Below are positions 1,003 to 25,618 of a stretch of DNA of 41,140 nt, one piece after another. The notes under the pieces are model-generated. The model did not search any database. It had not been told where the DNA came from and saw only the letters and a list, made by a program, of their open reading frames with translations. The stretch spans positions 1 to 41,140 of IMG/VR virus record IMGVR_UViG_3300024273_000418. One strand, given 5' to 3'. This DNA is from a virus. The position numbers were made by a program, and so were the translations under genes. Each line of letters starts with the position of its first letter. Position 1 is the first letter of the stretch.

Positions 1003-1899
1003 TTAAGTTCCCCAGGCGTTTCCAAATAGACTGATGTGGAGTCTTGGAGTGAATCTCCATCCTTTTTCCATACAAACTTCGGCAACTTCGCGAACGTTGA
1101 GATTATACTCTTCCGAACGTCCACCAAGCGGCATAAGATATACTGGACACTCAATGCCCGCATCACGATATGCTTGAACAGCACGGCCAGCTTCATCAAT
1201 GTCTGCACGATCAGCAACAACAAATTTGAAGTAAATATCACTGCCGTCGACACGACTGTAGTCGAGAGCAACGCCAGGCTTGATAGCATCATTCCAACTT
1301 TCTCCTGATACGGAGAGTTTAGGGCTGCAACTCCATGTGACCGTAATTCTGTCTTGATCATTAAGATAGTTAAAGAAATCGCTGTGTAGATTTTGTGTAG
1401 TGTTTGTTTCAAATGTGACATTTTTTAAATCCTGCATACGTGGGTGCTGAAATAGTTCTATGTACAAACGCTGCCATGCCAACAGCGGTTCACCACCTGT
1501 TAAAATCAAATGGACGTCTTGTCCATTATCCATTGTCCACTTACCTTCTGGAGTAAGAGATAGAATATGTTCTACTACTTCGTCAATAGTAGCGTCATGC
1601 ACCAAGTGTTTAAACTCGGGATAGATACTTGCATATGTATCACACCCTGTGTGGATAATAGGCAAGTCTTCAAACTTTTCAACACGATCAAGAATGCCGC
1701 CATCCAGCAAGTCTTTTACTTCTTGATTGTATCGTTGTCCTGCTTCGTGCTTTTCTGCACGACTAGGCTCGTTACGTCCAAGGCCAAAGTTCATGCAACG
1801 AAAGTTACAACCAAATGTGCGTAGGAATACACTGGGTACTCCTACAAACTTGCCTTCGCCTTGGACACTATAAAACGCTTCGCTATACCGTAGTTTCAT
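1003..1899 (-). CDS. queE: 7-carboxy-7-deazaguanine synthase (QueE), phage type
   Basis: This radical SAM enzyme converts 6-carboxytetrahydropterin to 7-carboxy-7-deazaguanine (CDG). Substrate-binding N-terminus YSEAFYSVQGEGKFVGVPSVFLR is split here as SVQGEGKFVG (11-20) and FLRTFGC. Cluster cysteines are C31 and C35, then C86 in HTGCDTYAS, so the usual CX3CX2C spacing is replaced by CX3CX50C. TGGEPLL at 134-140 is the SAM-binding motif. The protein ends in NAWGT, as I recall for other phage QueE proteins. With folE, the QueD-like gene and dpdA in the window it forms most of a 7-deazaguanine pathway. Length of 298 residues is long for QueE because of the inserted segment. Confidence 0.9.
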   Translation of the reverse strand: MKLRYSEAFYSVQGEGKFVGVPSVFLRTFGCNFRCMNFGLGRNEPSRAEKHEAGQRYNQEVKDLLDGGILDRVEKFEDLPIIHTGCDTYASIYPEFKHLVHDATIDEVVEHILSLTPEGKWTMDNGQDVHLILTGGEPLLAWQRLYIELFQHPRMQDLKNVTFETNTTQNLHSDFFNYLNDQDRITVTWSCSPKLSVSGESWNDAIKPGVALDYSRVDGSDIYFKFVVADRADIDEAGRAVQAYRDAGIECPVYLMPLGGRSEEYNLNVREVAEVCMEKGWRFTPRLHISLFGNAWGT

Positions 1900-1900
1900 A

Positions 1901-2020
1901 TTAAAACGATCCTATAGCTGCAAGCGCAATAAACGGAGCGCCCACTAGCATGAATACGATTATTGCTAGTGCAAGTGGAAGGCCTTTACCTGTGCAATAG
2001 TTTTCTTTATGTTCACTCAT
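1901..2020 (-). CDS. 39-residue single-span membrane protein
   Basis: A short reading frame of 39 codons plus stop fills the gap between folE and queE. It begins MSEHKENYCTGKG and continues into a hydrophobic helix rich in Leu, Ala, Ile and Val (about residues 15-38), with a short polar N-terminus and almost no C-terminal tail. Its ATG overlaps the folE TGA as ATGA, which argues for translational coupling, and its TAA lies 1 bp before the queE ATG. No function can be assigned; small membrane proteins are common among phage accessory genes. Confidence 0.7.
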   Translation of the reverse strand: MSEHKENYCTGKGLPLALAIIVFMLVGAPFIALAAIGSF

Positions 2021-2700
2021 CGTGCAAACTCCTGTTGCAATTTAATATTGTCAAAGAATTCTTTCTTTGTGCTCTGATCAGTCTTAAAGCTACCTTCGAG
2101 TACTGTAGTTTGTGTAAGGCTGCTATTTGCCATGATACCTCTATTTTCACAGCAACCGTGTGTTGCCTGAATGTAAACACCCAGATGCTCTGCACCTGTT
2201 GCAGCTTTGATCTCACGTGCAATATCATTTGCAAGTTCTTCTTGCAATGTACCACGTCTAGCACACCACTGTGCAATACGTGTGTACTTGCTAAGTCCAA
2301 TCAGTTTATCAGCAGCAATAATACCAATGTATGCAACACCGCTTACAGGCTGATGATGATGTGAACACATACTCTTTAGTTCACTGCGTACTACCAACAT
2401 ACCTTCATAGCGGTTCAAACTGTCATTAGGAAATGCAGTTGCGTCTGGACGATAGTCGTAGCGTCCTGCCATAATCTCATTGTAGTACATCTTAGCCAGT
2501 CGACGTGCTGTGCCTTTTGAGTTAGGATCAGTATGTCGATCGATAATTAGTGTGTCAAGTACAGTTTCAAATGCTAGTGTAGCATCGTCAATCAGTTGTT
2601 CTTTGTCGCCTTCTTGTAGCAAGCGAGCAATGTTGTCTCCGGCCCAGTAACGCTTGTCTGCGGCTTTACAACGTTCGATAATTTCTTCGTATTTTTTCAT
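2017..2700 (-). CDS. folE: GTP cyclohydrolase I (FolE)
   Basis: Converts GTP to 7,8-dihydroneopterin triphosphate, the first step towards both folate and 7-deazaguanine. At 227 residues it is full length. Zinc and catalytic motifs are visible: MCSHHHQP at 111-118 (C112, H114-116) and ATHGCCENRG at 179-188 (H181, C183/C184), with IGLSKYTRIAQ between them. The C-terminus matches the family (KTDQSTKKEFF). The ATG follows GGAGA in a leader supplied by a strong promoter at 2775-2747. The operon reads folE, small membrane gene, queE, metK, which fits CDG synthesis rather than folate. Confidence 0.95.
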   Translation of the reverse strand: MKKYEEIIERCKAADKRYWAGDNIARLLQEGDKEQLIDDATLAFETVLDTLIIDRHTDPNSKGTARRLAKMYYNEIMAGRYDYRPDATAFPNDSLNRYEGMLVVRSELKSMCSHHHQPVSGVAYIGIIAADKLIGLSKYTRIAQWCARRGTLQEELANDIAREIKAATGAEHLGVYIQATHGCCENRGIMANSSLTQTTVLEGSFKTDQSTKKEFFDNIKLQQEFAR

Positions 2701-2746
2701 TTAGTTCTCCGATGTTAAGGCAGTGGATTGCCATTAATATACTGTA

Positions 2747-2775
2747 AGTATACACGTTTATTTAGGTTTTGTCAA
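2747..2775 (-). promoter_or_regulatory. Sigma70-type early promoter for folE-queE-metK
   Basis: On the minus strand TTGACA (2775-2770) is followed by a 17-bp spacer and TATACT (2752-2747), about 47 bp before the folE ATG. The -35 box starts 1 bp after the stop codon of the upstream small gene. Three other promoters in the window have the same perfect -35 box and 17-bp spacer. Confidence 0.8.
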
Positions 2776-2776
2776 C

Positions 2777-2980
2777 TTATTCTTTAAAATATTTGTTGAG
2801 CATTTCCAGCTGGTCTTCGTATTCAGACATTGCTTTCAGCTCAATCTCAATTGCTTCGATGATGTCACTGTGTTCACCAATACCTGCTGGGTTATGTAGA
2901 TATACTTCTACATTTGCTTTGTGCTTGGCAATGTGTCCTAGTGCATGGGTGAACACTGCTTCCAATAGTATTTTACGCAT
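2777..2980 (-). CDS. Conserved small phage protein, function unknown
   Basis: 67 residues from the preferred ATG at 2980, which has GAGAG about seven bases upstream. An in-frame ATG at 2998 would overlap the upstream stop as TAATG but lacks a ribosome site, and would add MKERIK. The protein reads MRKILLEAVFTHALGHIAKH, then EVYLHNPAGIGEHSDIIEAIE and an acidic, helical C-terminus. From memory, close relatives with the motif VYLHNPxGIGEHSD occur in cyanophages without known function. It ends just before the folE promoter. Confidence 0.7.
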   Translation of the reverse strand: MRKILLEAVFTHALGHIAKHKANVEVYLHNPAGIGEHSDIIEAIEIELKAMSEYEDQLEMLNKYFKE

Positions 2981-2997
2981 TTTTATTCTCTCTTTCA

Positions 2998-3543
2998 TTA
3001 ATTTGATTCATAAGGGTATACAAGCCAGACATCTTCTTCTAACTTGTTCACTTCGTCGTAGTGGTATTTTACATCTTCGAACTTGCTGTTGAGATTTTCT
3101 GTCATAACAGCAAATCGAACATTCTTACCCCAAATGCTATTCCAAGCATCTGTTTCATCGGGCAAACAACTGTTCTGCCAATCTTGTTTAATCCAGTTGA
3201 ATGTAGAACCGGTATCGTTGATGTCGTCTACAATAAGAATATTCTTACGCAGCGACAGGTCCCATCTTGCACCAGTAATGCCAGTTTCTTCTGGATAGTT
3301 ATATCCAAAAGCATCTTCGCTCATCCAAAGATTGCTCTCAGGTCCGCATTCACTATCACGCAAACTAACTTTAAGTGTTTCCATTCTACAGTCAATTTTA
3401 TGGCTAAGAATGGTTGCCAATGGCAGTCCGCCTCGTGTGATTCCTACAATATAATCAGGACGCCAATTGTCCTTGTACATTTGTAGAATAATTTTATCTG
3501 CTGCCTTCTCAACATCTTGCCAACTATAATATTTCTTTTTCAC
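2998..3543 (-). CDS. Phosphoribosyltransferase family protein
   Basis: The PRPP-binding signature ILIVDDINDTGST is visible in the second half, and the N-terminal part has DYIVGITRGGLPLA, the typical loop of purine and xanthine phosphoribosyltransferases. I prefer the GTG at 3543: it has GGAG upstream and overlaps the previous gene's TGA as GTGA, whereas the ATG at 3567 lacks a ribosome site and would give a 28-bp overlap. This gives 181 residues. Long inserts around residues 65-90 and 120-140 make the substrate base uncertain. A salvage role in nucleotide metabolism is likely; the neighbours are small unknown genes. Confidence 0.8.
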   Translation of the reverse strand: MKKKYYSWQDVEKAADKIILQMYKDNWRPDYIVGITRGGLPLATILSHKIDCRMETLKVSLRDSECGPESNLWMSEDAFGYNYPEETGITGARWDLSLRKNILIVDDINDTGSTFNWIKQDWQNSCLPDETDAWNSIWGKNVRFAVMTENLNSKFEDVKYHYDEVNKLEEDVWLVYPYESN

Positions 3544-3809
3544 TTCAACAACTCCATACTTAGACATTTATTAACATAGTCGCCAATATTTCGGTCTTTT
3601 TCGATAATGTAAGTGCTGCTGATGCTGTTATCAGTTTTTCTGTCAAAGCGTCTAAACTCAAGTAGTTGACCGTTGACTGCACTGTAGATACGGAATGATA
3701 GAATAGGATCCTGTTCGGGCTTATTATCGCGCTGGCTGCTGCCAAGCGTTGCGACGTCTGACTCACAGTTAGCGGCCCATTTCCAAACTTTTCTTTTAAG
3801 CCAATTCAT
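3540..3809 (-). CDS. Conserved phage protein, 89 residues, unknown function
   Basis: Starts at the ATG at 3809, with AAGGAGAT about nine bases upstream. Basic N-terminus (MNWLKRKVWKWA), a Gln/Asn/Ser linker, then a beta-rich part FRIYSAVNGQLLEFRRFDRK and SSTYIIEKDRNIGDYVNKC. I recall similar proteins with the pattern EFRxYDRxTD and an IxEDxDxG segment in T4-like cyanophages. No enzymatic motif is evident. It overlaps the genes on both sides (GTGA downstream, 14 bp upstream). Confidence 0.7.
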   Translation of the reverse strand: MNWLKRKVWKWAANCESDVATLGSSQRDNKPEQDPILSFRIYSAVNGQLLEFRRFDRKTDNSISSTYIIEKDRNIGDYVNKCLSMELLK

Positions 3810-4695: not shown

Positions 4696-4917
4696 TTAAA
4701 ACTCTTCTATAGTTAAGTTTGTGCAGTCTTCTCTCAGCATGTGCAGGATCATAGCGCTGGCACTACTGTGATGTAAACTGTACCTCAACCTTGATACGTC
4801 AGGTAGTTCTATCACTTTGAATCCACCGCCTCGGAATTTGTGGATTTCGGCCATCACGCTGCCTGGACCGGAGGGACGTATCTTTATGTGCCAAACATGG
4901 TGTGTGGTCAACGGCAT
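4696..4917 (-). CDS. Hypothetical protein, 73 residues, end of amidinotransferase operon
   Basis: Begins MPLTTHHVWHIKIRPSGPGS; the middle has GGGFKVIELPDVSRL and the end is mostly polar (LREDCTNLTIEEF). Its ATG shares a base with the stop of the amidinotransferase gene (TAATG), so it is translated as the last member of that operon. No family recognised. Confidence 0.55.
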   Translation of the reverse strand: MPLTTHHVWHIKIRPSGPGSVMAEIHKFRGGGFKVIELPDVSRLRYSLHHSSASAMILHMLREDCTNLTIEEF

Positions 4918-5972
4918 CAGGAGAAGTAGTCTTCTAACGAGCCGGTCCGCTTTGTATCTAATGTCGCACAGTGAAATCCACCGCTCATACTACGTGCTTG
5001 ACGCATAGGCAATCCAATAGTATCAACTCCGTGTTTGCCCAAGATGCGTCTTAGTTTTTCTTGTTTCTCATCTACAATAACAAGTTCTTCATTTACGCTT
5101 AAAAAGTTTAGTCCAATGTACGGGCTGCACGGAGCAACGCCTGTGTTTGCTGCCGGTACGTGTAAGTCTTCTTCACCTACCCAAATTTTATCCCAGTCTT
5201 TAAAGATTGGAGGATAAAAGTTTTCGTTGAGTCTGCCAGCATTAAGCAGCACTAGTCCTGGGCGCAACGGCAGCACTGTGCTGTCAAAGTGTGCAAAGCT
5301 GTAATAACGCTCTGCAACATGCAAACGATAACCCTTTGGCTCAAGGATAGTTTTAAGCCACTGGAACCCAAGTTGATTGCCGCTGTTGCTCACTTGACAC
5401 AACAGGTCTCTACCCAATCTAACAATGTTAGGAGCGTCAAAAATAATCTCTTTGTTTACCAGTGTGGCATCGCGCCTGTCTTCTAGTTGATAGTTATCGT
5501 CTGTTAGAATAGGCTTAGGAGCGTTGATCCATTGCGTACCTTCGGCCATCCATTCATACAAGTGTTTGTAGTATGCTCTAGTTTCAAAATATCTAGCTCG
5601 CATTGGACTTGGGCATTCGATAATCATATTGTCTAAGGGCAGCAGCAAATCTCTAGGGCAGAATGTATACCACCCCGTTGTTTCCCACTCAGGTGTGCTG
5701 AACTTCTTATTGTGATCAACCGAATCTGGACGTCTTACTTTAACGCCTAAATCTGTTAAGCATGTTGACAACCCTTCAAGATCTTCATTTGCTTCATCTG
5801 CAATCCACTGTGCAATAGGTTGCCCGTCAAATTGTTTAATGTCTTCAAATTGTTCTCCACCATAGATAAAGCTGTGTGTGCTTTTGTTCATAGTAGGGTG
5901 AACACAGTTGTCGGCAGTACCGACAATAATTTCTTCTAATGGGTCCCAGTCGTTGTTAGTCTGTACGGGCAT
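4917..5972 (-). CDS. Glycine/inosamine-type amidinotransferase (AGAT family)
   Basis: 351 residues, matching the arginine:glycine amidinotransferase family, which moves an amidino group from arginine onto an amine. The N-terminus NNDWDPLEEIIVGTADN is typical. The three catalytic positions of AGAT appear present: D179 in IIFDAPNIVRLGRD, H228 in SFAHFDSTV, and the nucleophile C335 in MSGGFHCATLD, followed by TKRTGSLEDY. The start at 5972 has AAGGAC eight bases upstream. The family includes enzymes making creatine precursor and the guanidino groups of aminoglycosides, so the acceptor here cannot be named. It overlaps the PLP-enzyme gene by 17 bp, and an aminotransferase next door could make its acceptor amine. 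Confidence 0.88.
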   Translation of the reverse strand: MPVQTNNDWDPLEEIIVGTADNCVHPTMNKSTHSFIYGGEQFEDIKQFDGQPIAQWIADEANEDLEGLSTCLTDLGVKVRRPDSVDHNKKFSTPEWETTGWYTFCPRDLLLPLDNMIIECPSPMRARYFETRAYYKHLYEWMAEGTQWINAPKPILTDDNYQLEDRRDATLVNKEIIFDAPNIVRLGRDLLCQVSNSGNQLGFQWLKTILEPKGYRLHVAERYYSFAHFDSTVLPLRPGLVLLNAGRLNENFYPPIFKDWDKIWVGEEDLHVPAANTGVAPCSPYIGLNFLSVNEELVIVDEKQEKLRRILGKHGVDTIGLPMRQARSMSGGFHCATLDTKRTGSLEDYFS

Positions 5973-6855
5973 AATCTAGTCCTTTAATAAATTGCTTATG
6001 GAAGCTCAACCGATTCGTTTTACCGCCTCTATTGTACTCATTCCATTCGTCTCCACCAATGCCAAACAATATTGTCTTACTTGGTTCCACACCTAAATTA
6101 TAACAGAACTCTAGTTGTTTGTCAATATATTTAGATGGAATATAATCCGGAGTAAATTTTTCTAGATACTTAATACCAAGAGCTGCGCCTATTTTATTAT
6201 TGTAATTTATCTTATGATATACAAATAACGTATCGTCGTCATCTTCTTTTGTATATCTAATACCGATACGTGCATATGCTACAGGAAACGTCTTACTCAA
6301 GCTGAACGTAACATCTGTAATACAATTGTATGCAAGGTCAAATTCAATCCCGCGACATGCACCAAAGTATGCACAATCAACAAGTACTGGAATTTCCAAC
6401 TCACTGCATTTACGCATTAATGAATGATAATTCTCGTGTTTATTTCCTGTGTCGGCAAATGGCAATGATATAATAACTGCATCATTTTTGTGCAATGGTG
6501 CATCGTCTAACCATCCCCAACTGTATCCATTGCGCCATGCAAGTTTATGATACATGTAGTCGCCTTTGTAACAACGGAATCGACGGTTGTGATGTTTTAT
6601 ATAAAACTTATCAAAACTTTCAGTAGTTCCATTACTAAAACATCTATACTTAAACTGTTCTAATCCTACAAAACTATTCAGCGTTGTGCTTTTAATCCAG
6701 CTATCATAATTGTACAAGTACTCGTCGATGATTGTACTGTTGTTTACACAACTAAGATCCATCGGTTCTCTCAGCAGTTTAATAGTTGCTGGATCTTGTA
6801 TAGCAAATGCACTACCAAAATCCATGCCGCGCCTATCATTAGGAATATTTGTCAT
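5956..6855 (-). CDS. PLP-dependent aminotransferase-like protein (fold type I)
   Basis: 299 residues. Fold type I features are visible in order: the phosphate-binding loop SNGTTESFDKF, an aspartate that would pair with the pyridine nitrogen in VLVDCAYFGA, and the Schiff-base lysine in VTFSLSKTFPVAYARIG. It is shorter than most aminotransferases (about 400 residues), lacking much of the small domain. It lies between an Fe(II)-type oxygenase and an amidinotransferase with 17-bp overlaps on both sides, so it probably acts in the same pathway, perhaps creating an amine later amidinated. Substrate unknown; lyase or epimerase activity is possible. Confidence 0.75.
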   Translation of the reverse strand: MTNIPNDRRGMDFGSAFAIQDPATIKLLREPMDLSCVNNSTIIDEYLYNYDSWIKSTTLNSFVGLEQFKYRCFSNGTTESFDKFYIKHHNRRFRCYKGDYMYHKLAWRNGYSWGWLDDAPLHKNDAVIISLPFADTGNKHENYHSLMRKCSELEIPVLVDCAYFGACRGIEFDLAYNCITDVTFSLSKTFPVAYARIGIRYTKEDDDDTLFVYHKINYNNKIGAALGIKYLEKFTPDYIPSKYIDKQLEFCYNLGVEPSKTILFGIGGDEWNEYNRGGKTNRLSFHKQFIKGLDYARTD

Positions 6856-7447
6856 CTTCGTCCAAAAATGTTACTTGTGAAACAATAATATCACTAGGAC
6901 CAAAGTTGCACATACCGTGCCACGCATAGCCCTTCCATGTATATGTATCACCTGCTTGCCAGTGTGTATACACTTTGTCGCCTACTTGTAAAACCTGTCC
7001 TCTGTCCCAATCTTCCATCATCACAACACTGCGACATACATTGTGTACATTGTCTTCTTTGATGTCATTATATTTTACAAAGGTAGCATATGTGTCAAAG
7101 TGCCACATTAAACTGCAACCGGGTGTGAGTTTTAAAAAGTTGTAGTTGAACTTCATGTGTGCATACGGCTGGATAAGTACGCTCAACTGTTCAGTTAAAG
7201 GCGGCCGAATGCACATGTAGTGCAGACTACCTTCTTTGGGAACTCCCCATTCTTTATACATTGCTTCTAGTGATTTTTTATTCTTTGTAGCAAACGTATC
7301 CCAATCGCTATCTTGCGGAATTTCGTCTGTCATATAAGTTGCTTCCCAGGATAGCGTAAGAAGATCGTTGCTATCCCATGTTACTTCAGCAACAAGACTT
7401 TCGTTTGCGCTGTATTCTTGCCACTGTTCGTAGCTCTTCATGTCCAT
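6839..7447 (-). CDS. Fe(II)/2-oxoglutarate-type oxygenase, cupin fold
   Basis: 202 residues. The metal triad of the Fe(II)/2-oxoglutarate family is visible as HxD in CSLMWHFDTYATF and a distal His in GYAWHGMCNFGPSD, with a conserved Arg in VCRSVVMMEDW between them; this resembles aspartyl/asparaginyl hydroxylase-like cupins. An ATG two codons in (7441) would overlap the radical SAM stop as ATGA and may be the real start. A hydroxylation step in the cassette is likely. The substrate could be a small molecule, nucleotide sugar or protein. Confidence 0.72.
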   Translation of the reverse strand: MDMKSYEQWQEYSANESLVAEVTWDSNDLLTLSWEATYMTDEIPQDSDWDTFATKNKKSLEAMYKEWGVPKEGSLHYMCIRPPLTEQLSVLIQPYAHMKFNYNFLKLTPGCSLMWHFDTYATFVKYNDIKEDNVHNVCRSVVMMEDWDRGQVLQVGDKVYTHWQAGDTYTWKGYAWHGMCNFGPSDIIVSQVTFLDEDDKYS

Positions 7448-8376
7448 GATACTTCTGCTTCCAAGTGCGCTGCTATATACTCTTTATTTGGTATATTGTA
7501 TATTTTTAAAATATCTAGTAATTGTTGTTTTTCAGATGGTGCTAAGTTTATTATATCTAATTCTGCTGGAAATGTCAAGATATTTGTTGTCCACTTTGCA
7601 TATTTTTTAGTCCATTTTGCCAAATCCGGCAATCCGTTCCAGTTATTTTTATGTACAGTAGTGTGTATGGTATAATTAAACAATGAGGATATTTGATCCA
7701 ACGTATCGACCACTGTACTCCAAACGCTGCCGCTGCGCACTTGATCATTTAATGCGCCATATCCATCTATGCTTACAGTGAAGTGAACATGTTTGCATTG
7801 TCTTAACAATTGATAATCTTCTTCACGCAACTTGTGCATACCGTTGGTAAAGTATTCTACTTCTAAATATTCTAGGGTGTCAAAACTTTCTAAGAAACGT
7901 CTATGACGATTTGTCATCAAGGGCTCGCCACCTAAGAATACAACCTTCTCGATGCTTTCTGGAATGTTTGTAAATTCAGTTGAGCTGGTGATGCCGTCTT
8001 TGGGATTGGCAGCTGGATTCTTTTTAACAAACCAGCTGTGACTCCATTCTTCCCAGCAGCCGTCACAGGTAAGATCGCATATGTTATCAAACCCTACTTC
8101 TAAATAACGTAGTTTGATTTCGTCTGTGGTATAGGTTTTGTTAAACCGTTGTCTAAGACTTTCCTTGCCTAATACTTCTTCATGCTTGCACTTAGCACAA
8201 TTTGTATCATCGATAGTCCAATTATTCCTTAGTGTGTTGTACTCCGAACTACGAAGTATATCGTCTACGTTACCATTAAATTTTAGTATAGGTTGTTTAT
8301 AACGGCAACAAGGGAAGACGCGATTGCCTCCCCTTATATTAGTGTGACTGTACAATGCTGCGCATTTAGTTGTCAT
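7438..8376 (-). CDS. Radical SAM protein with extra N-terminal cysteine cluster
   Basis: The core motif CDLTCDGC (CX3CX2C) binds the 4Fe-4S cluster; FLGGEPLM is the SAM-binding GGE motif and HFTVSIDGYG follows. The N-terminal segment has RVFPCCRYKQP and CAKCKHEE, resembling the auxiliary cluster cysteines of twitch or SPASM domains but placed before the radical SAM core. I start at the ATG at 8376 (MTTKCAALYSHTNIRGG), 5 bp after the epimerase stop; a TTG at 8394 would overlap it. Related proteins are, as I recall, widespread in cyanophages and pelagiphages without a known substrate. Part of the six-enzyme overlapping cassette. Confidence 0.8.
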   Translation of the reverse strand: MTTKCAALYSHTNIRGGNRVFPCCRYKQPILKFNGNVDDILRSSEYNTLRNNWTIDDTNCAKCKHEEVLGKESLRQRFNKTYTTDEIKLRYLEVGFDNICDLTCDGCWEEWSHSWFVKKNPAANPKDGITSSTEFTNIPESIEKVVFLGGEPLMTNRHRRFLESFDTLEYLEVEYFTNGMHKLREEDYQLLRQCKHVHFTVSIDGYGALNDQVRSGSVWSTVVDTLDQISSLFNYTIHTTVHKNNWNGLPDLAKWTKKYAKWTTNILTFPAELDIINLAPSEKQQLLDILKIYNIPNKEYIAAHLEAEVSWT

Positions 8377-8380
8377 CTGC

Positions 8381-9247
8381 TTAGGTTCTTCCAATCTCCA
8401 GATTATATTGATCCAGACACATATCTTCTATGCTTTTAGTTAGCATAACATAGTTTGACAAATTATCAACTACACTAGAAACTGCATCGCCTTCTCTACG
8501 AGCTGCTATCACTCTATTTAATTTCTTTCCGGTTACTTGCTCCATGGTATTGAGTACATCCAATACACTGTATCCAGTGTTACTGCCTAGGCATTCGTAA
8601 GGAGTATCGGCAGGCCCAGCTTCTACCGCAGTAACAATAGCATTGCTGAGATCCACGACGTGAATGTAATCACGCACACAGGTTCCGTCTCTGGTATCAT
8701 AATCTGTTCCGTATATTTCTATTTGTTGTCTTTTACCCGCAGCACATTCGGCAGCCACCCGTATCAGATGAGTAGGTTCTCCTAGTTGACGATTAACACC
8801 GTCTGTGCCACTAACATTAAAGAATCTAAAAATAGTATAACCGGCTGCTTTTTCCTTGATTACATCTTCTGCTGCTACCTTACTTCTAGCATAAGGGCTA
8901 GCCATTTCCCACGCACTACTAGTGCTGGCAAACAACACATGCGGAGTAGATACTCTTTCTAACAAGTTAGCAGTACCCATAACATTTACACGATAGTATT
9001 CAGTGGGCTCTATCAAACTTTGAGGTACAACACTGCGCCCTGCCAAATGTACAACAGCATCATAGCTGCCACATACAGCACGGTCGCGAATATCGATATT
9101 ATAGTATTCGTCACAGTAGCCAGTTAGATCGTTTGTTTCGCCGTGGATCTCTGTGTCCCACCCGATGACAGTATGCTTGTGTTCTTTTAATAGTTTACAA
9201 ACATGGCTTCCGATATAACCAGATGCTCCTGTGACTAACACTTTCAT
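8381..9247 (-). CDS. NAD-dependent sugar epimerase, GalE-like
   Basis: Extended short-chain dehydrogenase fold. VTGASGYIGSHV near the N-terminus is the NAD-binding GxxGxxG. SPYARSK is the catalytic YxxxK and STSS precedes it. TCVRDYIHVVDLS is the diagnostic GalE-family C-terminal segment. At 288 residues it is about 50 shorter than UDP-glucose 4-epimerase, with a reduced C-terminal domain. It overlaps the glycosyltransferase stop by 1 bp (TAATG-like junction at 9247). It probably interconverts a UDP-hexose used by the neighbouring transferase. Confidence 0.85.
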   Translation of the reverse strand: MKVLVTGASGYIGSHVCKLLKEHKHTVIGWDTEIHGETNDLTGYCDEYYNIDIRDRAVCGSYDAVVHLAGRSVVPQSLIEPTEYYRVNVMGTANLLERVSTPHVLFASTSSAWEMASPYARSKVAAEDVIKEKAAGYTIFRFFNVSGTDGVNRQLGEPTHLIRVAAECAAGKRQQIEIYGTDYDTRDGTCVRDYIHVVDLSNAIVTAVEAGPADTPYECLGSNTGYSVLDVLNTMEQVTGKKLNRVIAARREGDAVSSVVDNLSNYVMLTKSIEDMCLDQYNLEIGRT

Positions 9248-10410
9248 CAGTACTTCCTCTTTGCTACTTCATCTCTGTAGCGGTTACTGTTGCGATTCCA
9301 TTGTTCGCCTCTGCCATCCATAATATCAAGACAACGATCAATAGTGCCTGATGTCCAGTCTGAAATTTTACCAATGTCCTTGTGTGGCGCATCAAGCAAA
9401 CGATCTAGTTTGTCTGCTGCGTCTTCCATACTCCACGGAATATACAAGCGTGTATGGTCATTGTTAAAGATTTCAGGGAAACTACGGTATGCTGGAAACA
9501 ACACATTAGTACCCAGCGCATCAGCTTCGCTAACAGTGTTGCTGGTCCAATCCTGTAACGCACAGTTAAACATCACACGACTATCACTAAGAATGTTGTA
9601 GTATTCATTCTTTTGTAGATTTTCGTATACTGTTAACACACCCCGACGAGCCAGCTCGTTTGCTCGTTCGATGTATTTAGGATTGTTTGAACGCAGTGGA
9701 CCGCCTTGTAGTACAGCAAACTCAACGTCTGTATCAGCATACTCTTCCGCAAGATCCATGTAGAAGTCAGGCTGTTTCTCTTGATCCCAACGTGCTGCAA
9801 ACACAACACGCATTTTACGTTCATTAAAAGGCTTGATGATGCCTACTCGTTCTTGTACTTCTGTCTTATCAAAAGCAAGTCCGCTGATGTTGTATAGTGG
9901 GGCTTTCCAGTTTGCAATCTTCATGTTAGCAACCATTTCTTCGTTGCTAGCAAGAACGCCTGTAACAAACTCGTTGCACATCTCTTCGTACAAACTCATC
10001 CACTTGCCCATACCCCAAACGTGTACAAAGTCATCTGGATCAACAGCTTGTGCTAAACAGCGTATCCAAATTTTAGGTCTTTGTTCTGCTGGAATTTGAT
10101 CCATGATGTATGGAAGCGATTCCATTCCAGGCTGAAACATGTCCTCAAAGAACACAACGTCTTCACCAGTTACTTCGCCGTTGCGCATCATCTGTACAAG
10201 ATTCATCATCTGGCTCATTGCAAAGAAAGAACGCCCGTGTGCATCTAGTACCTGGCCTACTTGAATTGCTTTTGTATTATCAATAGTAATTCCAGGAACA
10301 ACAACGTAGTCAATGCCACGCTTTTTAAACGCACCTACACTCCAGTCTTGCAACTGGAGTGTATAGCGTCCTTCATATGGCTCAAGGCCCATATAAAAGA
10401 GTTTACGCAT
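9247..10410 (-). CDS. Glycosyltransferase, GT-B type, conserved in marine T4-like phages
   Basis: 388 residues from the ATG at 10410 (MRKLFYMGLEPYEGRYTLQL), which sits 2 bp past the stop of the upstream gene. A longer frame extends to 10560 but would cover that gene. The second half looks like a Rossmann nucleotide-sugar domain: MRVVFAARWDQEKQPDFYMD, then VSEADALGTNVLFPAYRSFPE, which has the spaced acidic pair (E...E) of GT4-like retaining enzymes. Likely targets are phage DNA, a virion protein or a host glycan; the sequence does not say which. It heads the overlapping cassette with GalE next. Confidence 0.78.
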   Translation of the reverse strand: MRKLFYMGLEPYEGRYTLQLQDWSVGAFKKRGIDYVVVPGITIDNTKAIQVGQVLDAHGRSFFAMSQMMNLVQMMRNGEVTGEDVVFFEDMFQPGMESLPYIMDQIPAEQRPKIWIRCLAQAVDPDDFVHVWGMGKWMSLYEEMCNEFVTGVLASNEEMVANMKIANWKAPLYNISGLAFDKTEVQERVGIIKPFNERKMRVVFAARWDQEKQPDFYMDLAEEYADTDVEFAVLQGGPLRSNNPKYIERANELARRGVLTVYENLQKNEYYNILSDSRVMFNCALQDWTSNTVSEADALGTNVLFPAYRSFPEIFNNDHTRLYIPWSMEDAADKLDRLLDAPHKDIGKISDWTSGTIDRCLDIMDGRGEQWNRNSNRYRDEVAKRKY

Positions 10411-14290: not shown

Positions 14291-14319
14291 ATTATATTAT
14301 ATAAGTTGCTGGGTGTCAA
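14291..14319 (-). promoter_or_regulatory. Consensus sigma70 promoter (clamp-dpdA operon)
   Basis: Minus strand TTGACA (14319-14314), 17-bp spacer, TATAAT (14296-14291): both boxes match the consensus exactly. The clamp ATG is 25 bp further. The TGA in the -35 box is also the stop codon of the dehydrogenase gene upstream. Strong host-RNA-polymerase transcription early in infection is expected. Confidence 0.9.
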
Positions 14320-15074
14320 GTCTTTTTTTGCAGTGTTTTGTTATACTCTACTGCTGCTTCGAGTGTATTTAGGTTTATATTTTTATCTGCTGCCATTTTT
14401 AATAGTGCAGCAGTGTCCTTGGGAAAACACATTCCGCCAAATCCTCTAACACCGTCATCCGGCATTACCTGCGTATGACTGTGTCCTATACGAGTATCGT
14501 GCGCAATGCCAGCACGTACTTGACCAAAGTCAATTCCGCTAGCAGTACACATGTCGTATACATGATTAAAGAAACTAACCTTTGTAGCAAGAAAACTATT
14601 CCTAAAATATTTGATTAGTATTGCTTCTTGTGGTTTTACAATATACTGTTTAATGTCAGGATACTGTATACTGTATTGATCCGCCCAAAATGAATAATCG
14701 CCACTTAATATTACATTATCAACATCTTTAATGTCGTTTAAATAATTAGCAGCCCGAAGAAATTCTGGACTAAAACAAATTTCTTTTTGTGGAAATGCTT
14801 CTTTTAATGTATTCCATCCATCTAAACTGATAGTACTTTTAATCAGTATTTTGGCATGATCCGGTGCTGCCTTTACAACATCGTATACTATACTAATATC
14901 GCAAGCGCCGTCGGTTGATTGCGGAGTAGGAACGCATACAACTAGATATTGCGTATCCTTGTCAATTGTATTGGTGTTATATTGCGGATCTACAATTTTA
15001 ATATCCGCGAACCGCCCTTTAAAAAATAATTCGTATGCTTTGCCTACAAAGCCGTATCCAGCAATAACCATCAT
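14316..15074 (-). CDS. UDP-glucose/GDP-mannose dehydrogenase family, short form
   Basis: 252 residues against about 400-440 for the family. The NAD-binding start is VIAGYGFVGKA, then VVCVPTPQ, FSPEFLRAANY, a central helix KYFRNSFLATKVSFFNH, and GFGGMCFPKDTAAL with the catalytic Cys. The C-terminal UDP-binding domain is missing, so the protein has only the N-terminal and central domains. Such enzymes oxidise UDP-glucose or GDP-mannose C6 to a uronic acid; whether this short form is active is uncertain. It overlaps the phosphomannomutase gene by ATGA. Confidence 0.8.
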   Translation of the reverse strand: MMVIAGYGFVGKAYELFFKGRFADIKIVDPQYNTNTIDKDTQYLVVCVPTPQSTDGACDISIVYDVVKAAPDHAKILIKSTISLDGWNTLKEAFPQKEICFSPEFLRAANYLNDIKDVDNVILSGDYSFWADQYSIQYPDIKQYIVKPQEAILIKYFRNSFLATKVSFFNHVYDMCTASGIDFGQVRAGIAHDTRIGHSHTQVMPDDGVRGFGGMCFPKDTAALLKMAADKNINLNTLEAAVEYNKTLQKKT

Positions 15075-15781
15075 CCTGCTATTTTTGCTTCCTGTAGATA
15101 CCCAAGTCTTTCCCAGGTGTCACGCCAATGTCTAACTTGATAGGAATGATTGATTAATTTTGCCAACGGCTCGTCATTGCCACCCGGCAATGTCTTGTCA
15201 CCAAAGAAATACAGCTTATCTTCTTTTTGGTTGAAGTCTTTGATGATCTGACTCTTGTCATATCCAGTTGGATAAATGTCAAGCCCTGTATCGCCGCCGA
15301 TTGTAGCAGTAAGATCTTTGTATGTCATGTTGAACTGTAGGGCAATGCTTTCGCGCTCACGCCACATTGTATCCCATTCTACATACAATTTGCGATCCTC
15401 TGATGCAGCATTACGGCCTACAATACTAAAGTTTGCAGTTCCAGGGCGTTCTTCGATGTGATTACCTGTACGCACTGGAAACTTACTGCCTTCGAGCCAC
15501 CCTGTTAAAAACTTATGACACTCGTCTGGAAGTTTCCAGTTGTTGCGTTTAATATTTTTGCCGTGTTGCCATACATCATTGCCACTACAGTTGTAAACAG
15601 CATTAACTCGGTTTACAATACGCTCTCCAAGTTGCTCTAGTGTTTTAGGATAATCACTTCCGGTTACAAGATACACTTCGTTGTCTTGGCAAAATTCTGA
15701 AAAGAATTCGCCAAACTCGGAATCTATAGGTTGTCTACTTGGAGTGAGTGTACCGTCCACATCAAATATAAATTTATTCAT
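15071..15781 (-). CDS. Phosphomannomutase, eukaryotic PMM2-like HAD type
   Basis: 236 residues, close to PMM length. The HAD nucleophile motif FIFDVDGTLTPSRQPID, the substrate loop RPGTANFSIVGRNA, GGDTGLDIYPTGYDKSQ and YFFGDKTLPGGNDEPL correspond one to one with human PMM2 motifs. This class turns mannose 6-phosphate into mannose 1-phosphate. Bacteria usually use an unrelated alpha-D-phosphohexomutase, so the type is notable. The ATG has AAGGA upstream. Next to a nucleotide-sugar dehydrogenase and a cytidylyltransferase it suggests the phage makes or redirects an activated sugar. Confidence 0.85.
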   Translation of the reverse strand: MNKFIFDVDGTLTPSRQPIDSEFGEFFSEFCQDNEVYLVTGSDYPKTLEQLGERIVNRVNAVYNCSGNDVWQHGKNIKRNNWKLPDECHKFLTGWLEGSKFPVRTGNHIEERPGTANFSIVGRNAASEDRKLYVEWDTMWRERESIALQFNMTYKDLTATIGGDTGLDIYPTGYDKSQIIKDFNQKEDKLYFFGDKTLPGGNDEPLAKLINHSYQVRHWRDTWERLGYLQEAKIAG

Positions 15782-15808
15782 TTTGGTCCTTTGTAAAATG
15801 CGATTTCA

Positions 15809-15949
15809 TTATTCTACAATGCTCACTTCAGCAAAGCAGTCAATCTTCTGAGCTGTTTTTAGGGCAAGCTCTTTGTTATCAGCAGTAATTTCTACAATCT
15901 GATCACACTCGTAACCGAACATACTGTTATAGATTCTAACTTTATACAT
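15809..15949 (-). CDS. 46-residue hypothetical protein
   Basis: Reads MYKVRIYNSMFGYECDQIVE then ITADNKELALKTAQKIDCFA and VSIVE. A beta-alpha-beta pattern is likely. Its ATG has AGAGGAGAAAG upstream and overlaps the end of the cytidylyltransferase gene by 8 bp. No function assigned. Confidence 0.6.
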   Translation of the reverse strand: MYKVRIYNSMFGYECDQIVEITADNKELALKTAQKIDCFAEVSIVE

Positions 15950-16367
15950 TATCTTTCTCCTCTGCTGCTACTCGTTTACGCAAATCACTTGTACTAAATC
16001 TATGATCACGCTTGTTAAAGTGTAGTTGTATGCCACGTTTGCGACATACATCTTTTCCACTAAACTCTTTTTCTCTGTATTCTTCACCTAGGAATCTTAC
16101 GTCGACCTGAAACAGTTCTAGTATGTCTACCAAGTCCTGTTCTGTTTGATAAGGAACAATCTCGTCAACAAATTTTAGTGCGTTGAGTTGTGCGTAACGC
16201 TCTACCAATGTTTGTACAGGCTTGTTCTTTTCCTTTGGGCGATCGATTGTAGGGTCAGTTTGTAACCCTACAATCAGGTAATCGCAGTTTTCGCTTGCTT
16301 CACGTAACATTCCAATATGCCCGGCATGCAACAAGTCAAATACACTGAATGTAATACCTACTTTCAC
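15942..16367 (-). CDS. Cytidylyltransferase-like protein (TagD/GCT family)
   Basis: 141 residues from the GTG at 16367, 2 bp after the gp43 stop (the frame open to 16442 runs inside gp43). The nucleotidyltransferase signature GITFSVFDLLHAGHIGMLRE contains the HxGH motif; RPKEKNKPVQTLVERYAQL is the family middle motif and HRFSTSDLRKRV the ISTTxIR-like motif. Glycerol-3-phosphate cytidylyltransferase is the best-known member; CTP-activated sugar or alcohol phosphates are other possibilities. It adjoins phosphomannomutase and a nucleotide-sugar dehydrogenase. Confidence 0.82.
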   Translation of the reverse strand: MKVGITFSVFDLLHAGHIGMLREASENCDYLIVGLQTDPTIDRPKEKNKPVQTLVERYAQLNALKFVDEIVPYQTEQDLVDILELFQVDVRFLGEEYREKEFSGKDVCRKRGIQLHFNKRDHRFSTSDLRKRVAAEEKDNV

Positions 16368-16368
16368 T

Positions 16369-19050
16369 TCAATTCCAGTCAAACAAGTTATTAAACGTAG
16401 TGGTTTGCTTTGTGCTTTGTAAGTCGTAGTTAAGAACACCAATCAAGTTGTCTAGTTTGTTGTCAATAATAACTTCTTCCATTGCCGAATCATCAAACGG
16501 AAGTTCTTTGAACCATTCGGGCATACGCAACTCGTCTGTTGGATAAGCTACACTAGTATAGCCCAGCGGATTGGCTTTTACCTTACAAACAATAACTTTC
16601 ATACCGTCAACAATCTCCTGCGAGTACTTGTCGCCATTCATACGCTTGAGTGTGTTCCAGTTGATACTTGCTCTAACGTGTCCGGGCATGTTGGCTTTGC
16701 CTTGCTTTTCTTCTAGGCGTTGATAGTGTCCGACTTTGTTTGCACGTTTGGGCGAACCCTTTTCGTATCCTGGACGGTCTTTGAATTCCTTGCGGAATTG
16801 AGAAATGCTATCAAGGATATCTTTCTCGTCTGCCTTTTGCAATACCATCATAAGCAATGTGCTGAGAAATTCTTGCATAAACACTGGCGTATCCGAACGT
16901 TTCAGATCCAGGCCCATGGCCTTTACCTTGCCCGCTTTACCATCGATGTCTGTTCTAAACCCTTCAATGTCTGTAACTAATGCTGCATAACGCTTCTTGG
17001 TAATAAACAATCCTGTTTCTGCAACAATCTCACGTCCTGCTGCAATAACATCTGAACGACTTTTGGGACAATGAAATGCCTTTGCCATAAAGTCAGCAAA
17101 TGTAGTGTTTGCTTGCTCTGCAATCTGATCATACAGTTGAATAGCATTTTCTTTTGACCACGGAACTTTGCCTGCTGCAACATCGTCCTTGAGCATTGGC
17201 CACGCACTAAAGTATACAGAGTCAGTATCACCATAAATAACTGCTTTGCCTACGTGATCATATTCGCCTGTGATAATCTTATTAACTTCGGCACTCATGT
17301 GTTTAACAATTTGTCTACCACTCAGAGTAGTTGATTGTCCAATACGTTTGTCAAAGAATCTACAACCAGGATTAAGAATAGCACCATACAAACTGTTCAA
17401 GTTAATTTTCTTAACCAGCTGACGCTTGTCCCAGTATTCAATCTCTGCTTCGTTCTTGGCATCCTTTGCCTTCTTCAGCATCTTCTGTAGATCTTTACGT
17501 TCTGAATACCAACGCTTTAGCAATCCTGGAATAACAGCTTCAAACTCATGTGTAAAGATAGTACCGTTTGCACTAAGCATCCACGGAACATGGCTGTCAA
17601 AGATTAGTTTGTAGATTTCTGCGCCGCTTAGTACATCACTGCGGCCGTCTTCCCAATCTAAAGTCAGCGCCACATCTCTACGCTGATCCATAACAGCTTC
17701 GTATTCCTCTGTAGCAAAGCGACCTTCCCAGCTGGTAGCAAAGGTCTTCTTCCTAAGAGTTATATCTTCGTGAATTCGTTGATCACTAATGTCCAGCCGA
17801 AGTTGGCCAATAATACTTTCCGGCGCCATGTTCATACTGCGAATAACACTTGGATACAGACTGTTCAAGTCCATTGAACCTACCCATTCATGCAAGCCCT
17901 TTTTAGGGAACGCAACATATGCACCTGCGGCTTGTGTGTTCTCACCGTGGTTGCGTCTGTTGGGAACCTGCATCCCGCGTCTGTGTGCTTCGTTGATGAT
18001 GGCTTGTTCTGTAAGTGCAACTGCGCCTGCTGTTGTCTGTAGCAACACTGTGTTCTCGTGTGCAAGAACGTTTGCAAGATCGATAAATTTTAGTTTTTGA
18101 TCTAGTTTATCCAGCAGTGCAACGTCTTGTCTGTTGTATTCAATAAACTTTTCAAAGTCTTTGTTGTACAGTTGATCCAGTGTACCTTCGTACACAGTCT
18201 TGTTTTCACCAACTTCCAGCTCACCAATAGCATCCAGTCGGTATGTGTGACGTTCTTCGTATGTGTATTTGCGATACAGGTTAAGATAATCCATATGTAC
18301 TCTTCCGATAGTATCATATGTTTCGCTCATCTTGCCAAACTTTTCGTATTCGCGCTTTTTAGGTTTTTGTCCCCACAAGCAAAAACGTCTAGTGTCGTCG
18401 CTGCTGAGTATACGCTTGACTCGGTTAACAGTATACGGAACATCGTACCCTTCACTATTCCAGCCACTGTGGATGTCAGCATCCTCAATCAAGTCCAGGA
18501 ACATGCTCAGCATTTGTCCTTCGCCTTCTTTACTGTTTGGAAAAAGAATACAGCTTTCACCCCAACGTGCGTTACACATTTCTTGTGCTTCTTCTAGCGG
18601 CAATCCCTTTGGCGGCATTGCAACTGTAATCAGCAAATCAAGCCACTGCAAATATACAGTGATAGCAGTGATAGGCATAAACGGATCGTCTATAGGAGCA
18701 AATCCACGCTCTGGATCAAAGTCAGTCTCGATGTCCCAAAACACCACGTTTAGTTTAGGTGCATCTTGATTGATATAGTTTTCACTCAAGCACTGAAAGA
18801 TAGGATTGATATCGCTTTCAAACAGATTCTTGCCTTTGTTAATAGCAAGTTCTTTACGATAGTCCTTTGTATTCTTACATACAATGCGACTTAATGGATT
18901 GCCAAAAATACTTTTATATTTTCCCTTGGGATCTTCATAAAAGAATGTGTATTTTGCTTGATATTCTTGATAAGTTCTTTTACCATCCTTGCGTTCAACA
19001 ACGCGAATGATATCGTGGTCTCGGTCAAAAAACCCGTCTACGTATGGCAT
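16369..19050 (-). CDS. 43: Family B DNA polymerase, T4 gp43 type
   Basis: 893 residues, the size of T4 gp43. Exonuclease motifs: VVFWDIETD with D106 and E108 (Exo I), HSGWNSEGYDVPY (Exo II), YNRQDVALLD (Exo III). Polymerase motifs: SMDLNSLYPSVI (A), KKINLNSLYGAIL (B) and VIYGDTDSVYF (C). All catalytic acids seem intact, so both proofreading and synthesis are expected. The start at 19050 has AAGGAGAAT upstream. No intein or split is present. It should work with the gp44 clamp loader (39534-40448) and the gp45-like clamp in the window. Confidence 0.97.
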   Translation of the reverse strand: MPYVDGFFDRDHDIIRVVERKDGKRTYQEYQAKYTFFYEDPKGKYKSIFGNPLSRIVCKNTKDYRKELAINKGKNLFESDINPIFQCLSENYINQDAPKLNVVFWDIETDFDPERGFAPIDDPFMPITAITVYLQWLDLLITVAMPPKGLPLEEAQEMCNARWGESCILFPNSKEGEGQMLSMFLDLIEDADIHSGWNSEGYDVPYTVNRVKRILSSDDTRRFCLWGQKPKKREYEKFGKMSETYDTIGRVHMDYLNLYRKYTYEERHTYRLDAIGELEVGENKTVYEGTLDQLYNKDFEKFIEYNRQDVALLDKLDQKLKFIDLANVLAHENTVLLQTTAGAVALTEQAIINEAHRRGMQVPNRRNHGENTQAAGAYVAFPKKGLHEWVGSMDLNSLYPSVIRSMNMAPESIIGQLRLDISDQRIHEDITLRKKTFATSWEGRFATEEYEAVMDQRRDVALTLDWEDGRSDVLSGAEIYKLIFDSHVPWMLSANGTIFTHEFEAVIPGLLKRWYSERKDLQKMLKKAKDAKNEAEIEYWDKRQLVKKINLNSLYGAILNPGCRFFDKRIGQSTTLSGRQIVKHMSAEVNKIITGEYDHVGKAVIYGDTDSVYFSAWPMLKDDVAAGKVPWSKENAIQLYDQIAEQANTTFADFMAKAFHCPKSRSDVIAAGREIVAETGLFITKKRYAALVTDIEGFRTDIDGKAGKVKAMGLDLKRSDTPVFMQEFLSTLLMMVLQKADEKDILDSISQFRKEFKDRPGYEKGSPKRANKVGHYQRLEEKQGKANMPGHVRASINWNTLKRMNGDKYSQEIVDGMKVIVCKVKANPLGYTSVAYPTDELRMPEWFKELPFDDSAMEEVIIDNKLDNLIGVLNYDLQSTKQTTTFNNLFDWN

Positions 19051-24466: not shown

Positions 24467-24614
24467 GTTCGTATCTTGCTAACGATTTATATTCACTCCA
24501 GTAATCATTACGCTCATCGGTACTTGATCTTTGTGACTCGTGCTCTTTATGCTTTTCGCAATAATGAGTTATTTCTTCGCTTTCGCTCTTCCTGCTTTCA
24601 TGTTCGCTTGCCAA
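24459..24614 (-). CDS. Tentative 51-residue protein, TTG start
   Basis: An open frame from a TTG at 24614, inside the 3' end of the nucleotidyltransferase gene, runs to a TGA overlapping the start of the 69-residue gene. It is rich in His, Glu and Ser and ends YWSEYKSLARYEHG. Support is the fit between genes and the AGGA a few bases before the TTG; the unusual start and lack of recognised relatives keep confidence low. Confidence 0.3.
   Translation of the reverse strand: MASEHESRKSESEEITHYCEKHKEHESQRSSTDERNDYWSEYKSLARYEHG
24484..24491 (-). promoter_or_regulatory. Possible late promoter variant TATAAATC
   Basis: TATAAATC on the minus strand, 18 bp upstream of the ATG at 24466. One mismatch to the T4 late box; it may instead be chance. 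Confidence 0.3.
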
Positions 24615-25618
24615 TGTGCCATCCTTTGCTTTTCACCACTTGAATTCTTAGCAGTCTTTCTCAAACTGCTAACACTTGCTTTAGTATTTACGCCACTACG
24701 CTTGGCCAATCCTTTACGTCCTGGCTTCTTACCATCTGCAAAGTTTTCTGTAGCATGTATTTCGGGCTGGCTGTGCGTGCCACCGATTGCTTTATACTGT
24801 AACCCTAAACGATCTAATTGCTTCATTAGTTTCTGCATTTCTTCTGGGCTTGCACTGGTAACAACTACGTCACTGTCGCCTTGGCCGTATTCATGCGGAT
24901 CGGATTGATCTAAGTTAGCAATATTTTTTCCTATTTTATACCAATCCAAGTCGCTTGCAGTGTCTATTACCAGTGTGTTTTGCGGCATAGTAAGTTTAAC
25001 TTTATCATAACCTTTAGGATCAGGCTCAACTGCTACTGCTTCTGGAACAGACTCTTGATCTCTAACACCCATGCCGTTGCGTACTGCATCATACATAGTT
25101 TTAGCAAGTTTATTATCCGGAACACCTTGTGCAAATGCTTCTAAATTGCCACTTGCAGCAGCAGCTCGCATCTTGCTTGCACTCATACCTTCAGCACCAT
25201 CTGCATCTGGATCACGTTCGCCTGCATTGACTACATTAACACTATCAAAATTATATTCAGTACCGTTGTATTTGTTAATCAATGTAGTAAAGTCGCCAAT
25301 GCGATCACTACCGGCTACATATACAATATCAGTGTAACCCATTGACTCTAATTTTTGTAATGCTTGTATAATAGTTTTCACACTACTATCGCCCACTGTA
25401 ACATTAGGAAAAAATGATTGAGCAAATTTTACTTTAGTAGAAAAGTCCAACGGATCTGTTTTAGGTTTCTGCGATTGACTTAAAAAAATATAAGGATCAC
25501 CGGGCAAACTTGCAACTTTGTCTGCAAGTTTTTTATGACCGATTGTAGGTGGATTCATTCTTCCAAAGGCAAGAACTGCCGTTTTACTGCTTGCTTCGTA
25601 CAGTTCTCTAAGTAGCAT
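24569..25618 (-). CDS. Tagged nucleotidyltransferase (NMNAT/cytidylyltransferase fold)
   Basis: 349 residues. The N-terminal MLLRELYEASSK carries the shared tag. The nucleotidyltransferase domain follows at once: VLAFGRMNPPTIGHKKLADK contains the (H/T)xGH motif, VYVAGSDRIGDF is the middle strand, and GMSASKMRAAAASGN is the ISxxxxR-like motif. A second half of unknown role (LVIDTASDLDWYKIGKN, VVVTSASPEEMQKLMKQLDR) precedes a basic C-terminus (QANMKAGRAKAKK). Substrate unknown; nicotinamide or phosphate-containing substrates are possible. Its ATG overlaps the preceding stop as TAATG. Confidence 0.75.
   Translation of the reverse strand: MLLRELYEASSKTAVLAFGRMNPPTIGHKKLADKVASLPGDPYIFLSQSQKPKTDPLDFSTKVKFAQSFFPNVTVGDSSVKTIIQALQKLESMGYTDIVYVAGSDRIGDFTTLINKYNGTEYNFDSVNVVNAGERDPDADGAEGMSASKMRAAAASGNLEAFAQGVPDNKLAKTMYDAVRNGMGVRDQESVPEAVAVEPDPKGYDKVKLTMPQNTLVIDTASDLDWYKIGKNIANLDQSDPHEYGQGDSDVVVTSASPEEMQKLMKQLDRLGLQYKAIGGTHSQPEIHATENFADGKKPGRKGLAKRSGVNTKASVSSLRKTAKNSSGEKQRMAHWQANMKAGRAKAKK

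Follow-up and report, generated by a model that had tools for sequence, protein, structure and literature searches.

To date, antibiotics and toxins are the main settings in which guanidinylation chemistry is known. The locus described here, a stretch of six enzyme genes on the minus strand (10410-4917) of an IMG/VR virus record (IMGVR_UViG_3300024273_000418, whose 41,140 bases are referred to as the window), contains four genes, for a radical S-adenosylmethionine (SAM) enzyme, an oxygenase, a pyridoxal phosphate (PLP) enzyme and an amidinotransferase, which recur together in diverged viruses and are here called the core. One chemical parallel is the streptidine branch of streptomycin biosynthesis (StsC and StrB1), where an aminotransferase is likewise followed by a StrB1-type L-arginine:amine amidinotransferase. 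The core differs in its PLP enzyme, which appears class I/II-like rather than StrS-type, in its additional radical SAM and oxygenase genes and in being phage-encoded; a StrS-type aminotransferase was found instead in a sister phage system, typified by cyanophage S-SCSM2R. The S-SCSM2R-type cluster shares its oxygenase family with the core and has a homologous amidinotransferase (36% identical), but it uses another aminotransferase family, usually lacks the twitch radical SAM protein and carries several glycosyltransferases.

The Campylobacter Firehammerviruses CP220 and CPt10 carry an amidinotransferase among several radical SAM genes in an exchangeable module, with nucleotide-diphospho-sugar-transferase-fold proteins in the CP220 cluster (PMC2853527). 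Their amidinotransferase is, however, only 25-29% identical to that of the core, and when the Firehammervirus clusters were searched by profile, neither the PLP enzyme nor the core oxygenase had a homologue there. Pelagimyophages and cyanomyophages possess a host recognition cluster, a hypervariable island of T4-like phages in which tail fibres and glycosyltransferases are accompanied by radical SAM cassettes (PMC7029224). The core clusters of other phages resemble it, often forming large enzyme clusters beside receptor-binding genes, although its published text names no amidinotransferase or four-gene unit; in the window, itself a fragment, no tail-fibre gene was recognised beside the core, though many related loci have receptor-binding genes. 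Ocean surveys of auxiliary metabolic genes discuss creatine synthesis (PMC11360552); a creatine-type reading with glycine as acceptor was rejected here, as no methyltransferase family emerged as core-linked. The open literature searched, which covered few subscription papers and no preprints, held single amidinotransferase genes or Campylobacter radical SAM clusters and not the four-gene unit, in agreement with the statement in a first-pass annotation of the window that no described phage system with this combination was known; CP220/CPt10 and S-SCSM2R are partial precedents, and the S-SCSM2R-type cluster is likewise not described in that literature. The core is best read as a variant of the sugar- and surface-modification islands of T4-like phages.

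Results

The first-pass annotation had proposed a single co-translated cassette of six overlapping genes. All six exist, with overlaps and gaps as it described: from the glycosyltransferase gene to the amidinotransferase gene, consecutive spacings are -1, +4, -10, -17 and -17 bases. Nevertheless, gaps of at most 17 bp occur in 30 of the 41 neighbouring minus-strand gene pairs of the window; tight packing is the norm in this genome, and the spacing is therefore no evidence for a special operon. The signal that exceeds chance is another: four of the six genes remain linked in viruses that have diverged. The first 220 bases of the annotated interval (from 4696) belong to a small open reading frame (ORF), which had no match in Pfam, PHROG or NCBIfam and probably lies outside the pathway. 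The features are as follows.

9247..10410, minus strand: GT-B type glycosyltransferase, second module (387 aa; PF00534)
8381..9247, minus strand: GalE-like NAD-dependent sugar epimerase, second module (288 aa; PF01370, TIGR01179)
7438..8376, minus strand: twitch-domain radical SAM enzyme, core gene (312 aa from ATG; PF04055, NF033640)
6839..7447, minus strand: Fe(II)/2-oxoglutarate (2OG)-type oxygenase, probably AspH-like, core gene (202 aa; predicted double-stranded beta-helix (DSBH) fold and invariant residues)
5956..6855, minus strand: predicted fold-type-I PLP enzyme, very divergent, class I/II aminotransferase-like, core gene (299 aa; predicted fold and invariant residues)
4917..5972, minus strand: amidinotransferase, StrB1/AGAT family, core gene (351 aa; PDB profile search)
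4696..4917, minus strand: ORF without family match (73 aa; 1 bp overlap with the amidinotransferase gene)

Viral contigs were scanned with the PLP, amidinotransferase, glycosyltransferase and radical SAM proteins and all ORFs were then profile-searched; because these same proteins served as queries in retrieving the loci, the counts describe their relatives rather than phages at large. Of the 37 non-redundant (nr) viral loci that hold the amidinotransferase gene and extend 5 kb or more to each side of it, 34 encode the oxygenase and the PLP enzyme, 29 contain all four core genes and four contain the glycosyltransferase and epimerase. The 36 loci with all four genes (median span 5.1 kb) show eight gene orders, and over them the pairwise divergences of the four genes correlate (Mantel r 0.51-0.77, p<=0.001); the core genes are under purifying selection (pN/pS 0.07-0.23). 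The conserved unit thus consists of the radical SAM enzyme, the oxygenase, the PLP enzyme and the amidinotransferase, with linkage and catalytic residues kept despite shuffling. Rather than occurring singly and never together, which would have refuted the first-pass reading, these genes stay together in most of the diverged viral loci, in varying order.

The core is carried by many uncultured T4-like phages of water, and the region is variable between relatives of the window virus. In 50,697 annotated phage records, the radical SAM protein had no match, no record held the four-gene core and the only match of the PLP enzyme was in pelagiphage Mosig (24%). A megablast comparison of half of the window with phage records gave no match.

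The glycosyltransferase and epimerase form a separate module, which most core loci lack and which is common where there is no core. The epimerase accompanies the glycosyltransferase in 60 of 63 glycosyltransferase loci of at least 12 kb, and the full core is present in six of the 63. The glycosyltransferase matches PF00534 (Glycos_transf_1) weakly (4.7e-6), found no significant relative in a profile search of PDB sequences and has a counterpart with 72.5% identity in cyanophage BUCT-ZZ01, where it occurs alongside FolE, QueD and QueE and the core has no match. The epimerase matches PF01370 (2.9e-37) and TIGR01179 (212.7 bits, under the cut-off of 262) and conserves the active site Y119-x3-K123. 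The first-pass enzyme identities stood and four of the genes are a conserved unit, while the six do not make one cassette.

The amidinotransferase belongs by sequence to the StrB1/AGAT family, with arginine as predicted donor and an amine as predicted acceptor. In the PDB its profile matched StrB1 (1bwd) best, at 345 bits; HsvA (282), human AGAT (274) and SxtG (266) followed, and the StrB1 match runs the full length of the protein (profile positions 3-348). Residues D108, D179, H228, D230 and C335 align with D108, D179, H227, D229 and C332 of StrB1, and H228, D230 and C335 are 100% conserved among 46 nr members. The acceptor of StrB1 is an aminocyclitol phosphate, and known AGAT-fold amidinotransferases use small amines.

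No Pfam hit, and hence no match to the StrS/DegT sugar aminotransferases (PF01041), was obtained for the PLP enzyme, and its profile found no significant relative among PDB sequences. Its AlphaFold2 model (pLDDT 66.7, medium confidence) resembles the HisC and CobD folds (Foldseek E about 1e-7, TM about 0.5). D160, K188, R196, R276 and R282 are 100% conserved in 68 nr members; K188 would be the Schiff-base lysine and D160 the aspartate to the pyridine nitrogen. The model thus indicates a very divergent, aminotransferase-like enzyme of fold type I.

For the window oxygenase there was again no Pfam hit, PF05118 (AspH-type) included, and no significant relative in a PDB sequence search with its profile; the S-SCSM2R relative matches PF05118 weakly (E 0.023). 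The model (pLDDT 83) is a DSBH that matches cupins and prolyl-4-hydroxylase, and H116, D118 and H177 (the Fe ligands, HxD...H) together with R139 are 100% conserved in 124 nr members, which points to a protein that is probably Fe(II)/2OG-type and AspH-like. Structure prediction, proposed earlier as a check, thus returned a fold-type-I aminotransferase and a DSBH. The radical SAM protein matches PF04055 (8.6e-8) and scores 168.5 bits against the twitch model NF033640 (cut-off 170). Its gene starts at the ATG at 8376, a TTG at 8394 being less likely, and the C100-x3-C104-x2-C107 motif and the auxiliary cysteines C23, C24, C60 and C63 are 100% conserved, or nearly so, in 49 nr members.

The S-SCSM2R-type amidinotransferase is a large viral family of its own (329 stretches). 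Among 42 nr sister loci, a short DegT/StrS-type aminotransferase that matches PF01041 and keeps the PLP lysine was found in 39, the same oxygenase family as in the core in 36 and GT25-type glycosyltransferases in 37-39, at about three copies each; 15 encode a carbamoyltransferase and 12 another radical SAM protein. Both systems occur in one virus in L003, L004, L021 and G902, the last a 170-kb relative of the window virus. In the first three, the four-gene core is about 4 kb away from a second amidinotransferase and a short DegT aminotransferase (about 14974-16543). A virus record of 343 kb, the size of a jumbo phage (G910; L375, L376), contains at least four amidinotransferase genes, all diverged.

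In other phages the core often lies within large enzyme clusters with extra AspH-like and radical SAM genes, epimerases and UDP-glucose dehydrogenase-like genes. Additional AspH-like (families F6 and F9) and radical SAM (F4) genes occur in many core loci, and the Mtd_N receptor-binding family (F8) is near the core in 20 of 56, with Gp38 adhesin or gp9/10 also found nearby. No exporter, carrier domain or resistance gene was consistently linked to the core.

Two further families are frequent in these 56 loci. F5 (about 390 aa, e.g. L103:5325-6515; 27 loci) has the motif TEKTWR...HPFI and is perhaps a glycosyltransferase; the motif is reminiscent of fucosyltransferases, but searches of PDB, Pfam and phage records gave no support for that assignment and F5 was left unnamed. 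F7 (about 400 aa, e.g. L104:9538-10665; 21 loci) has no significant Pfam match and strikingly conserved His/Asp/Tyr motifs (GTEFiNG, GHxLDRxdAYYELHhQCY, HDdYTP and HGWN).

The whole core was not found in bacteria. Only the PLP and oxygenase genes were seen there, side by side, in two genomes from a single alphaproteobacterial family; one pair lies inside an O-antigen-like locus. About 400 genomes sampled from each of the class and the phylum yielded no further close bacterial relative. A chromosomal amidinotransferase of about 372 aa is present in 89 of 110 genomes (G001-G110) of the SAR11-like alphaproteobacterial family of L028.

In the window, the core sits among replication and nucleotide-metabolism genes, and T4-like genes for DNA polymerase, clamp loader, PhoH, thymidylate synthase and ATP-dependent protease are present. 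A UDP-glucose dehydrogenase-like protein (14316-15074, minus strand; 252 aa) matches the NAD-binding and central domains only, and similar short forms occur in other core loci. A cytidyltransferase-like protein of 349 residues (24569-25618, minus strand) has a PHROG match limited to about its first 190. Genes for a QueE-like protein, GTP cyclohydrolase I and a phosphoribosyltransferase are close together at 1003-3567 (minus strand), with a similar set plus QueD in BUCT-ZZ01; they possibly represent a nucleotide-level 7-deazaguanine route.

Discussion

On this evidence the odds are about even that the core encodes a tailoring pathway whose product is a guanidine-bearing group, with a surface sugar or glycan as the most likely carrier. 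In such a pathway a precursor would be oxidised by the radical SAM protein and the 2OG-type oxygenase, the PLP enzyme would make or process an amine on it and the StrB1-like amidinotransferase would transfer the amidino group from host arginine to this amine, so that a guanidine would form as it does through the aminotransferase-StrB1 pair of streptomycin. The group would most likely be borne by a sugar or glycan decorating either the host envelope during infection or the fibres of the phage itself. The neighbouring glycosyltransferase-epimerase pair could supply or transfer the sugar in this virus without being obligatory.

The pairing of an amidinotransferase with an aminotransferase-like PLP enzyme, on which the first-pass reading turned, is supported by the StrB1 match with its aligned catalytic residues and by the same logic in the sister system. 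In both phage systems an amidinotransferase goes with an AspH-like oxygenase, yet the aminotransferase differs, and this analogy offers the best evidence both for amine-then-guanidine chemistry and for a sugar scaffold; the latter is also suggested by the amidinotransferase being closest to StrB1 and by the GT25 enzymes of the sister loci. Of the unusual sugar, nucleotide or glycan first proposed as product, the sugar or glycan thus gains support, while the nucleotide gains little. A surface location is suggested by the receptor-binding genes near core clusters and by the bacterial pair in the O-antigen-like locus.

Several observations weigh against this reading. In its predicted fold the PLP enzyme is nearer HisC and CobD than the sugar aminotransferases, and its invariant C-terminal arginines would suit a substrate that carries a carboxylate or phosphate. 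Peptides are frequent substrates of AspH-like oxygenases and of twitch/SPASM radical SAM enzymes. The linkage is established only among relatives with at least about 54% amidinotransferase identity, plus the sister group; with the glycosyltransferase and epimerase in so few core-gene loci, no glycosyltransferase is obligatory for the core; and the second bacterial PLP-oxygenase pair lies outside any glycan locus.

Next in rank, though unlikely, is modification of a phage protein or peptide such as a tail fibre or adhesin, by AspH-like hydroxylation, radical SAM side-chain chemistry and guanidinylation of a lysine-like amine. This would fit the usual targets of these two enzyme families and the core loci in which further AspH-like and radical SAM genes adjoin receptor-binding proteins, but it fits poorly with the small-amine acceptors of AGAT-fold enzymes and with the sugar-type aminotransferase and GT25 enzymes of the sister system. 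The overlaps also leave no room for a precursor-peptide gene between core genes, and a ribosomally synthesized and post-translationally modified peptide was rejected on that ground. Ranked below it, and doubtful, is a free small molecule (a guanidino amino acid or osmolyte, natural-product-like) that alters the metabolism of the host or harms competitors. Amino-acid substrates would be in keeping with the class I/II fold of the PLP enzyme and its invariant arginines, the related HsvA and SxtG make secreted metabolites and the SAR11-like family has its own chromosomal amidinotransferase; against these stand the lack of any consistently linked exporter, carrier domain or resistance gene and the frequent position of the clusters beside receptor-binding genes.

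A role in modifying the phage's DNA, for instance by guanidinylating the amine of a 7-deazaguanine, is improbable, even though QueE-like (1003-1899), GTP cyclohydrolase I (FolE, 2017-2700) and phosphoribosyltransferase (2998-3567) genes lie just downstream of the core. A cyclohydrolase is near the core in only five of the 56 diverged loci, and BUCT-ZZ01 combines the glycosyltransferase with FolE, QueD and QueE in the absence of a core match. No TGT/DpdA-type protein (tRNA-guanine transglycosylase, PF01702) was found in seven related records, several being fragments; such an enzyme can, however, be dispensable, as in Campylobacter phages, which have 2'-deoxy-7-amido-7-deazaguanosine (dADG) in their DNA without DpdA (PMC6884629), and some of which carry a related amidinotransferase. 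That all six genes are unrelated accessory genes, neighbours by accident, is very improbable. The region is variable, tight packing is normal and the glycosyltransferase and epimerase do separate from the other four, for which two genes this explanation stands in part; it is contradicted for the four-gene core, which stays together through eight orders with correlated divergence.

Returning to the surface sugar or glycan, we suggest, tentatively, a widespread phage pathway whose product, a novel guanidino sugar in oxidised form (or a guanidinylated side chain), would be placed on the envelope of the host or on the fibres of the phage itself and would alter surface charge and receptor recognition; the pathway would exist in two versions distinguished by their aminotransferase. 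With the four-gene unit, several phage protein families that had no name become parts of a single annotated system, and a complete guanidinylation pathway would be encoded by phages that infect aquatic bacteria. If it acts on surface glycans, it would give these phages a concrete, testable means of altering receptors or of excluding competitors; if it acts on fibres, adhesins would gain a new level of chemical diversity.

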